Shown here: positions 31,587-34,716 of the stretch, piece after piece | How positions within the stretch are numbered: position 1 is the stretch's first letter | How the letters are laid out: every line of letters begins with the position of its first letter | Assembly (NCBI GenBank): GCA_028712445.1 | Contig: JAQTPY010000007.1 | Location: forward strand, 1 to 38,499 | DNA length: 38,499 nucleotides | Reading direction: 5' to 3' | Origin: Minisyncoccota bacterium | Lineage (GTDB): Bacteria; Patescibacteriota; Minisyncoccia; Minisyncoccales; RBG-13-42-11 | Notes under the pieces: generated by a model | What the model was told of the DNA's origin: nothing | Databases searched by the model: none | The model's input: the letters and a program-made list of their open reading frames with translations, nothing else | Position numbers and translations under genes: made by a program

Positions 31587-33017
31587 TTATTGTCCAACTC
31601 GGTTTGAGGTATTTTTGAGCAGATCGTTTAAGCATTCAATTTTCGTTTCGAATGTCCTGAGGCCCAGATACATGTAAGCGCCACAGAACTTTTTTTCCTG
31701 GCAAGATCTGTTTTTACTATCATACCACCAGAGATTTTTACAGGCAGCTTCGGTCGAGGGTGTTATTGCGCCGGAATTCTCTTCAGGTTCTTCTGTTTCT
31801 TCGGATATATTTCTGCAAGTTCCTTTGTAATCAACTGTAATTCCTTCTCTTGCCGCAAAGCATTTGTTGCTGTAGGTTTTTCCATTTCTTCCGCAAACAG
31901 GATCCCAAAGAGTGATGCAGGCAGTATCATCTGAACTGTCAGAACCTTGATTGGTTTCTGCGGGAATGACGCATTTAAAATTCTTTACACATCCTTCGTC
32001 ATCTTTTTCAATAACAACTCTGCCTTTTGGACAGAAATCAGCGGCGGGCTTGCTTACAGAGGTGCAATTTCTTTCCGTTGCCCTTTCTTGCGCATTTTCA
32101 AGCACTTTTGTCCTGATTTGGATAAGGTTTTCTTTGATTCTGGGGATTGCGGATGATTCCAGTTTTTCCCTTAAAGTATCAAGAATTTCCACTTTTCTAT
32201 CCTCTTCCACTTCAATCTTCTCTATGTAATCCTTAAACCTTTCCTGATCTGCCGGAGACATTTTTTCCAGGTCTCCCTGGAGTCTTCTTAAAGCATTTTC
32301 CTGCGCCTTTTGGATTGATTCTCGGGCCTGTTCGGGAACTTTTTCAGCCAGTCTTTCCAAAACCTCGAGATTTTTGAAGTTTTTAAAATCGCTTCCTTTG
32401 ATTTCTTCCAGATTTTTTTCAATTCTTTCCTGGATATTCTCAGCGTTTTCCAGGCGGTTCATTACTTGGCCGAATTTTTCAAGATGTCTTTCTCTTGCTT
32501 CTTTTATTTTTTCAAAAGTTGTCGAACTAACCTGGTTTTCGAGTTTAACCAGGACGCGTTCCTGAAGAGTTTGCTGTTTTATGAATTTATCCAGAAATTT
32601 TCCAACCCGTTCATTCTCCGTTGCTTTTTCCTTAATTTTTTCAGCAACTTTTTGCGCTTCCTGGGTTTCCTGTTGATAGTTTTCCAGAGCTTTTTGGATT
32701 CTTTCCTGAGATTTATTTTGAGCTACCATCTTTTGGACTTCGAGTAATTTTTCATTGCTGAATTTCTCCTTAAGTTGAGCTTTCTTCAAGTTGTCGAAAG
32801 TGAAAATACTTTGGATGTCTCTGCCGATTTCTTTGAAAACGTAAAAAGGATGGTCGGGAAGAATGTTGGGCTCATCCACTTCAAGATCTGCAGCTGAAAC
32901 TTCTTCATCTAGGGCTACGTCTTGGTTTGCGGCGGTCAAATCAGTCGTTTCGTCTGCCAAGACAAATCCCACATTGAACATTAAAATTGATGACAGTAAA
33001 ATGATTAAATGTTTCAT
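31587..33017 (-). CDS. Secreted DUF5667 coiled-coil protein with Kazal and Kunitz-like modules
   Basis: A 476-residue exported protein. A signal peptide (1-22) is followed by a DUF5667 domain (about 50-150, ILPDHPFYVFKEIGRDIQSIF then KKAQLKEKF, split). A long charged helical stalk runs to about 315. A small cysteine-rich segment (C318-C349) is followed by a Kazal-type module (about 365-401: C367, DPVCGRNGKTYSNKC with C375 and C386, C401). The last module (C426, WWYD, C439, C445, FETKIEC with C462) resembles a Kunitz/BPTI domain that has lost some cysteines. DUF5667 is typical of Patescibacteria. Protease inhibition at the cell surface is inferred from the two modules. The start codon lies 55 bases after the upstream gene, without a clear promoter. 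Confidence 0.78.
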   Translation of the reverse strand: MKHLIILLSSILMFNVGFVLADETTDLTAANQDVALDEEVSAADLEVDEPNILPDHPFYVFKEIGRDIQSIFTFDNLKKAQLKEKFSNEKLLEVQKMVAQNKSQERIQKALENYQQETQEAQKVAEKIKEKATENERVGKFLDKFIKQQTLQERVLVKLENQVSSTTFEKIKEARERHLEKFGQVMNRLENAENIQERIEKNLEEIKGSDFKNFKNLEVLERLAEKVPEQARESIQKAQENALRRLQGDLEKMSPADQERFKDYIEKIEVEEDRKVEILDTLREKLESSAIPRIKENLIQIRTKVLENAQERATERNCTSVSKPAADFCPKGRVVIEKDDEGCVKNFKCVIPAETNQGSDSSDDTACITLWDPVCGRNGKTYSNKCFAAREGITVDYKGTCRNISEETEEPEENSGAITPSTEAACKNLWWYDSKNRSCQEKKFCGAYMYLGLRTFETKIECLNDLLKNTSNRVGQ

Positions 33018-33072: not shown

Positions 33073-34716
33073 TTAATGGATTTCTTCCTTTTTTTCTTTC
33101 AGAAAACTTCTCCATTGTTCCAAAAACTCGATGAAAAGCTGAAAAGGCATGTCAATAAGAGAATTAAAGAAGACCATGATGATGTTGTATTTCACAAAGC
33201 GGGCAGAAAGCCATTTTCCAAGACTGACTACCGGCAAGGAAAAAAGATCTATCAGGAAACCCAGAAAAGTTCCTTTAGGTTCTGTAATTTGGAGCTCCTT
33301 TGACCTTTCTCTTAATTTGACTCCCGCAAAAGAGATTAAAGATACAAAAATGGTGAAGATTACATAGGAAACGGGGGGAAACTGCAAATAATAAAGACCA
33401 ATGAATATTGCGCCGAAAGAAAGGAATGAGGCCAGTAAATAAAAGAAGGAAATGAAAGCGTTCATCAGCCATCCTCTTTTTCTCCTGACTTCAATTGTAT
33501 AGCTGCCGTTTTTCTCTTCTGAATAAAGGATTTTCATTACTTCCATAATGACCATTTGTCTGTTTTCTTTTGGAGGAGATGTGATAGTTAAGACTAAAAA
33601 GGCCATCAGGAGGGGTGGAAAAAGAATGCTTGTTGCTAAAGCGGGAATACTGAATTGTCCTGTTAATGCTCTGTCTATCGGGATTTCCAAAGCTAAAGCC
33701 AGCAGGATTTTACTGGCAAAAATGGAAAGCGTGGCGTAAATGGCAGCTCTTCTTATTCTTAACCTCGAGGTTTTTAATCTTTTATCATAAGCTTCAATCA
33801 CTAATCTTTCAGTTTCATCAGCTTTTTGAAGCTTATCCTGTATACTCACCGGATCGCGAGAAACAACGTCGCCTATTATTAAATAAGGAGTGTCATATTT
33901 TTCGCATATTCTGTAGAATTTTTCAGCTAAAGGATGGCGCAAGTCATTGCTTATCTTCTCGCATACAGAATAAATATTATCAGCTATGTCCTGAAGGAGC
34001 TTGTCGTTTCTGCTTAAATTTCTCCAATCAGAATATTTTCTTTTTAATAAATCATAGGAAATAATGGGAGTGTCTAGTTTTAAAAGGGCCCTGTGAATGG
34101 CGATATATATTTGAGTGTTCTTTTCTTCCTCATTAATCCCTCCTATAGTGAAAACCCCTTCTCTGACCTTAATCTTGTTTTTTATTGACTCCATCATGTA
34201 TTCGATCAGAGCCTGCTCTTTTTGAGGGGAGGAGAGTATTTCTTCTATTTCGCAGGAAGCTATTTCAAGAAGCCAGTCGTGTATTTGAAGGCCAGTGCTG
34301 GAATTTTTATTTATTTTTTGAGGAATAAAGGACTGGGGAGCCAAAGAAGAAAGTTTGTCTAGGATAAAAATATATTTATCAAGCGCTTTTTGTATTTCTG
34401 GAATTTTTGAAGCTGGAATCTTGTCATTGGGAAAATGTCCCCCGCGTATCAGCTCCAAAATCAAGGGCTCGGCAATTTTTTCACTTTCTTTTATTAAAAA
34501 AAGACGCCTCTTTAATGATCGGCTGATTGCAGCTCTTCTCATCAGATGTTCTTCTTTCCAATCGACAATTCCTCTTATTTTTTCATAAAAAGAGGCGACT
34601 CGTGAAGCGACTTCGTCAACATGTATGGTTGAGACATCTCCTTTTTTCTGGTTTGCCTGATACCAATTCTGATAGCGGCTTATTAGTGTTTGGGTTTCTT
34701 TTGATAGATTAGACAT
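33073..34716 (-). CDS. Multi-pass membrane protein of unknown function
   Basis: A 547-residue protein I do not recognise. Residues 1-320 are soluble and helical, with many charged residues and no catalytic motif that I can see. Hydrophobic segments follow at about 324-344, 357-379, 418-442 and 447-466. Two amphipathic or weakly hydrophobic stretches near 483-500 and 510-530 lie in a charged tail. A large cytoplasmic helical domain followed by a membrane bundle suggests an envelope scaffold or sensor. It is flanked by thrS upstream and the DUF5667 surface protein downstream on the same strand. Confidence 0.6.
   Translation of the reverse strand: MSNLSKETQTLISRYQNWYQANQKKGDVSTIHVDEVASRVASFYEKIRGIVDWKEEHLMRRAAISRSLKRRLFLIKESEKIAEPLILELIRGGHFPNDKIPASKIPEIQKALDKYIFILDKLSSLAPQSFIPQKINKNSSTGLQIHDWLLEIASCEIEEILSSPQKEQALIEYMMESIKNKIKVREGVFTIGGINEEEKNTQIYIAIHRALLKLDTPIISYDLLKRKYSDWRNLSRNDKLLQDIADNIYSVCEKISNDLRHPLAEKFYRICEKYDTPYLIIGDVVSRDPVSIQDKLQKADETERLVIEAYDKRLKTSRLRIRRAAIYATLSIFASKILLALALEIPIDRALTGQFSIPALATSILFPPLLMAFLVLTITSPPKENRQMVIMEVMKILYSEEKNGSYTIEVRRKRGWLMNAFISFFYLLASFLSFGAIFIGLYYLQFPPVSYVIFTIFVSLISFAGVKLRERSKELQITEPKGTFLGFLIDLFSLPVVSLGKWLSARFVKYNIIMVFFNSLIDMPFQLFIEFLEQWRSFLKEKKEEIH

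Follow-up and report, generated by a model that had tools for sequence, protein, structure and literature searches.

The window analysed here, a stretch of 38,499 nucleotides from contig JAQTPY010000007.1 of a Minisyncoccota bacterium, carries on its reverse strand a gene for a protein of 476 residues, the features of which are collected in Table 1. The domains, fold predictions, conservation, distribution and gain of the tail module described below were all obtained by computation. The signal peptide is the sole hydrophobic stretch of the protein, and no lipobox Cys, second transmembrane segment or C-terminal/wall anchor was seen in its sequence. The protein would be located outside the cell; for the surface protein proposed in an earlier note on this DNA, a signal peptide is present, and an attachment to the surface has no counterpart in the sequence. 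The DUF5667 domain (48.6 bits against a Pfam cut-off of 27) and the Cys-free, Glu/Lys-rich extension that follows it amount to ∼265 residues without Cys and plausibly form a long helical stalk or rod, after which come three small Cys modules. NCBIfam holds no model for the protein, and no paper on DUF5667 was found in the literature searched.

Table 1. Features of the DUF5667-Kazal-tail gene and its product (window coordinates; residues refer to the 476-residue protein)
Feature	Position	Strand	Basis
Whole gene, 476 aa, predicted secreted DUF5667-Kazal-tail protein	31587..33017	-	ORF + Pfam
Signal peptide, residues 1-21 (hydrophobic core 3-20, cleavage VLA/D)	32955..33017	-	Sequence
DUF5667, residues 51-138	32604..32867	-	Pfam PF18915, E 1.1e-12
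Glu/Lys-rich region, residues 139-316, putative helical stalk	32070..32603	-	Composition; kept in orthologues
Four-Cys module, residues 318-349, predicted beta hairpin	31971..32066	-	Orthologue conservation + AF2 strands
Kazal domain, residues 364-401	31815..31928	-	Pfam PF07648 over cut-off; Foldseek 4hgu
Putative P1 residue Thr369 (Cys367 + 2)	31911..31913	-	Alignment with GmSPI-2
Acidic linker, residues 402-425	31743..31814	-	Net charge -6 over 24 residues
Tail module, residues 426-462, predicted loop-deleted Kunitz-like fold (Cys 426, 439, 445, 462)	31632..31742	-	Alignment + AF2/Foldseek

The first of the three modules, which follows the stalk and precedes the Kazal domain, is missing from the earlier note. 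Its Cys pattern is C-x10-C-x13-C-x5-C; it is kept in six orthologues (alignment A4), AF2 places strands at A4 residues 17–22 and 28–34, and no Pfam family matched it. An antistasin identity, suggested by a likeness seen by eye, was dropped in view of the lack of a Pfam antistasin match. In the window and the orthologues the module reads P-x3-FC-x2-G-[RK]-x8-GC-x5-C, and a look-alike is present in an archaeal protein (L014) that is also a carrier of the tail.

Both DUF5667 and the Kazal domain, which the earlier note had combined in this protein, score over their Pfam cut-offs. For the Kazal domain the scores are 30.4 bits against 22.8 with Kazal_2 (PF07648) and 30.2 bits against 21 with Kazal_1 (PF00050), and since the cut-off is exceeded the match is not ascribed to chance. 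Bacterial Kazal domains are already known from Pfam. Cysteines 367, 375, 386 and 401 correspond to the second, third, fourth and sixth cysteines of a classical Kazal domain; the six-Cys arrangement of the latter (bridges 1-5/2-4/3-6) is absent, and a non-classical, two-bridge type fits. As four Cys are likewise found in the GmSPI-2 type, this excludes the classical subgroup and not the Kazal family. The reactive loop (C-x-P1-x5-C) is of normal length, reading C367-IT-LWDPV-C375. An AF2 model of the hairpin together with the Kazal domain was obtained at pLDDT 85, and the best Foldseek match of the Kazal model is 4hgu (TM 0.86 by target length, rmsd 1.3). Profile, fold and inhibitor-type loop all agree with the Kazal domain previously proposed at residues 365–401, and a profile search found no second Kazal domain in the 0.7-Mb genome of the window.

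By sequence, GmSPI-2 of the wax moth Galleria is one of the two closest relatives of known structure (phmmer E 5e-10), and the Kazal domain of the window shares with it four Cys, two bridges, seven residues between the first two Cys, a Thr at P1 and the motif WDPVCG-x2-GKTYSN-x-C, at 49% identity in the structural alignment. GmSPI-2 differs in being a stand-alone insect peptide with Glu at P1′, whereas the domain of the window lies close to the C-terminus of a long bacterial protein with DUF5667 and has Leu at P1′. GmSPI-2, with two bridges and Thr7 at P1, is an inhibitor of subtilisin and of proteinase K (PMC4169406); Thr369 is assigned to P1 because the seven residues from Cys367 to Cys375 are the same in number as in that peptide. 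The Kazal profile is matched by all 12 aligned relatives, in which P1 is Thr in six, Ala in three, and Met, Glu and Asp in one each, with Lys or Arg in none, and in which P2′ is Trp in 11. Several Kazal domains with Glu at P1 inhibit subtilisin (PMC3082530). By this comparison the loop Ile-Thr369-Leu-Trp would occupy the active site of a serine protease and act there as a pseudo-substrate, tightly bound and cut only slowly. Its non-basic P1 would suggest that the enzyme resembles subtilisin/proteinase K or elastase, and the most likely source of such an enzyme would be the host or neighbours.

Proteases of a host or competitor, named in the earlier note, are putative targets. A Pfam search of the genome found no S8 subtilase, which would make any subtilisin-type target a foreign one, and a foreign subtilisin-like protease is the most economical guess for the target of the Kazal domain. 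Thr at P1 does not by itself fix the target, and the three trypsin-like proteins encoded in the genome (two HtrA-like, two with the GNSGG serine motif) could be internal ones, with the Kazal domain restraining HtrA-type proteases of the cell itself. We regard such endogenous control as highly improbable, as a Kazal domain (E ≤ 0.001) is found in 15 of the 287 Patescibacteria sampled, its own genome included, a patchiness that suits an external target better; we also know of no regulation of HtrA by Kazal domains.

A different possibility is that the hairpin and the Kazal domain form a structural or ligand-binding unit of the follistatin/agrin kind, devoid of an antiprotease role. The model of the two modules is matched, among others, by structures with follistatin domains (Fstl1, hevin, follistatin), phmmer aligns follistatin over query residues 23–99, and P1 is mostly Thr or Ala across the order, which is less variable than an arms-race inhibitor would predict. 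Matches that span both modules do so at an rmsd of 11–13, however, suggesting that the two modules together may not amount to a follistatin domain, and the Kazal domain alone fits the inhibitory GmSPI-2 and LDTI at about 1 Å (Foldseek), with a loop of the same length as in inhibitors. A follistatin-like unit is accordingly considered doubtful, while retaining some weight.

Within the order to which the genome belongs, the gene for the stalk and Kazal core is a stable one. The protein is matched in 27 of 39 genomes of the order (that of the window included), and its best relatives are 43–59% identical across most of the protein. The orthologues have neighbours in common with the window, namely a 547-residue membrane protein, threonyl-tRNA synthetase or a MiaB-like gene; because orthologues in related genomes adjoin these same neighbours, eukaryotic contamination as a source of the gene was ruled out. 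The 547-residue protein (window 33073–34716), which adjoins the stalk-Kazal gene in many relatives, is conserved, ends in FLEQWR-x-FLKEKKEEIH and has no Pfam or NCBIfam match. Several orthologues stop at or shortly after the Kazal domain, and others (e.g. L031, L037 and L040) have other C-terminal additions. The tail is absent from all orthologues examined, including the closest (L029, 59% identical), in which the Kazal domain is followed by a short linker; the tail was thus most likely gained in the lineage of the window, as judged from these alignments. In one further orthologue (L036) the DUF5667 stalk runs into several hundred residues without a Pfam match and no Kazal domain lies within the part examined, which suggests that heads are exchangeable on a common stalk.

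The cysteines of the tail lie exactly where the earlier note had placed them, in what it described as a reduced Kunitz domain. The Kunitz profile of Pfam (PF00014) gives the tail of the window a sub-threshold 11.5–12.3 bits against a cut-off of 21 (E 0.2–0.36) and matches only three of nine tail relatives at all (best E 0.013), and a search of PDB sequences with a tail profile returned a chance match alone (Atg9, E 1). AlphaFold, run on nine tail sequences, predicts a hairpin together with one short strand and a helix at the C-terminus (pLDDT 81), and in a Foldseek search of the PDB with this model nearly all matches are Kunitz domains, which take all of the first 26 places, with probabilities of up to 0.99 (2knt: probability 0.99, TM 0.60). 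None of the Foldseek E-values is below 0.1; poor E-values come with short folds. In hhalign the tail is aligned in register with a Kunitz alignment at E 1.2e-3 and a probability of 20%, as against E 0.14 and 0.4% for a Cys-rich Kazal alignment used as a control, and Cys439 and Cys462 fall on Cys30 and Cys51 of Kunitz, a predicted bridge. The predicted hairpin and C-terminal helix, and the motifs aromatic-x-x-Asp-x5-Cys and Phe-x-[ST]-x3-Cys in register, are thus held in common with Kunitz/BPTI domains (PF00014; 2knt, 1bik, BPTI), and the tail is probably Kunitz in fold.

By the same alignments, the tail appears to stand outside the Kunitz family proper. Besides the score below the Pfam cut-off, it lacks the bridge 5-55, position 55 being hydrophobic in all nine aligned members and Cys5 not conserved, and its second bridge is shifted. 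The Cys spacing of 12–13/5–6/16 compares with 15/7/11–12 in classical Kunitz domains, so that the intervals of bridge 14-38 are lost from both Cys1–Cys2 (12–13 against 15) and Cys2–Cys3 (5–6 against 7). The PROSITE-type signature, which we take to be F-x2-{I}-G-C-x6-[FY]-x5-C, is found in none of the nine members and in five of eight Kunitz controls, the GC-x6-[FY] part being absent from the tail. The 3-residue gap in the hhalign alignment falls directly after Cys14, that is, within the P1-P3′ segment that enters the protease, and each of the nine members is three residues short between Cys14 and the aromatic strand. If the strands are aligned instead on Tyr-Asp-x5-Cys, the first and third tail Cys come to lie at BPTI positions 17 and 36, presumably opposite each other across the hairpin. 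Under either alignment the inhibitory loop of the tail is read as shortened, a loss taken from alignment and not from model geometry. The KxFCGxYxYxGL core is moreover conserved in all nine members. Inhibitor loops usually vary, and such conservation points to a common fold or ligand rather than to a diversifying inhibitor loop. The tail would accordingly represent a diverged Kunitz fold that has lost the Cys5-Cys55 bridge together with three antiprotease-loop residues, and its most likely role is in binding (adhesion or docking) and not in canonical inhibition.

The two protease-inhibitor folds of the earlier note are thus related to the families that it named, and an inhibitory role is retained for the Kazal domain, whereas for the tail a standard reactive-site loop is absent by alignment, which in part is an outcome that the note itself had named as refuting its proposal. 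The idea of two protease inhibitors is in this sense half borne out. Were the protein nonetheless double-headed, with the Kazal domain and the tail each blocking a serine protease, P1 of the tail would be Lys427 after Cys426, and the tail of the window does open with Cys-Lys, as BPTI does, in a fold predicted to be Kunitz. Only two residues separate the first tail Cys from Leu-Trp-Trp-Tyr-Asp, as against five in BPTI, and the position next to the first Cys is occupied by K, Q, Q, R, S, S, K, S and S in the nine members, so that no basic P1 is conserved. In one member (L069) the mature protein is predicted to start about three residues before the first Cys, leaving no upstream loop segment there. 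We consider a double-headed inhibitor unlikely, and keep it in view because Kunitz domains of standard build do occur in Patescibacteria, both beside a Kazal-like module (L050, L065) and alone (L049). Our preferred reading, to which we give somewhat better than even chances, is that of a single working Kazal inhibitor head directed against foreign subtilisin-like proteases and a Kunitz-fold binding tail, both borne on a rod made of DUF5667 and its extension and tipped by small disulfide modules.

The Kunitz domain of L049 (G275:C8:44321-44476) belongs to a protein of ∼130 residues with a membrane segment, is of the classical six-Cys type with Lys at P1 (54.5 bits), and is close to animal Kunitz domains such as those of SmCI and TFPI. 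L050 (G054) and L065 (G251) resemble lipoproteins, and in both a Kazal-like Cys module, recognized by eye and with no Pfam match, is followed by a six-Cys Kunitz domain with a loop of normal length that scores about at the Pfam cut-off in L050 and below it in L065; from their sequences these two are possible true double-headed inhibitors. All three share with the protein of the window the phylum and an extracytoplasmic position, and L050 and L065 also the Kazal-like module. They differ from the tail in their full six-Cys Kunitz domain and normal loop length, and from the protein as a whole in being membrane- or lipid-anchored by sequence and lacking DUF5667. Most other sub-threshold PF00014 matches in Patescibacteria were partial or interrupted and were set aside.

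Relatives of the tail are found in eight other genomes, in stretches 50–63% identical that mark it as a real conserved module: one each of Vogelbacteria, Peribacteraceae, Nomurabacteria and a further member of the Patescibacteria, two of Staskawiczbacteria and two of Woesearchaeota; L069 is a copy in one more genome of the archaeal phylum. The module is rare, with three clear cases in 380 Patescibacteria genomes (that of the window included) and occurrence in two of 194 genomes of the archaeal phylum. Weak matches in G065, G266, G207, G140, G090, G176 and G377 (E 1e-2 to 1e-5) were judged to be chance, being mostly short and in several cases interrupted by internal stops, and tblastn found no relative on viral contigs. 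The tail occupies the N-terminus, the middle or the C-terminus of differently built secreted proteins, some of which also carry SLH, PG_binding_1 or PKD domains over the cut-off or F5/8-C below it, and the closest pair between bacteria and archaea (L013 and L014) is 67% identical. On these grounds it looks like a mobile surface module. Patescibacteria and Woesearchaeota are separate groups of small-celled, probably host-dependent prokaryotes, and it is a tentative proposal, to which we allow not quite an even chance, that the tail is a branch of the Kunitz fold that gave up part of the antiprotease loop, was retained for binding and has been passed as a mobile module among their surface proteins.

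Kunitz domains are usually regarded as animal proteins, and the literature searched yielded no paper on either Kazal or Kunitz domains from Patescibacteria. No Pfam family covers the loop-shortened, Kunitz-like module of Patescibacteria and Woesearchaeota, which appears to be undescribed in the sources searched; the cryptic pacifastin-like inhibitors reported from bacteria in 2026 offer a parallel from a different family (PMC13388995). A reduced Kunitz form in secreted proteins of Patescibacteria and DPANN, here beside a canonical Kazal domain, raises the testable question of whether small, mostly host-dependent cells disarm proteases of their partners, and domains of ∼40 residues are easy to express. 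The tail would in addition offer a natural example of the use to which the BPTI fold is put once its inhibitory loop has been shortened. In one of the woesearchaeal proteins (L018) the tail module is followed by about ten CP-x2-C-x-CD-x2-G repeats.
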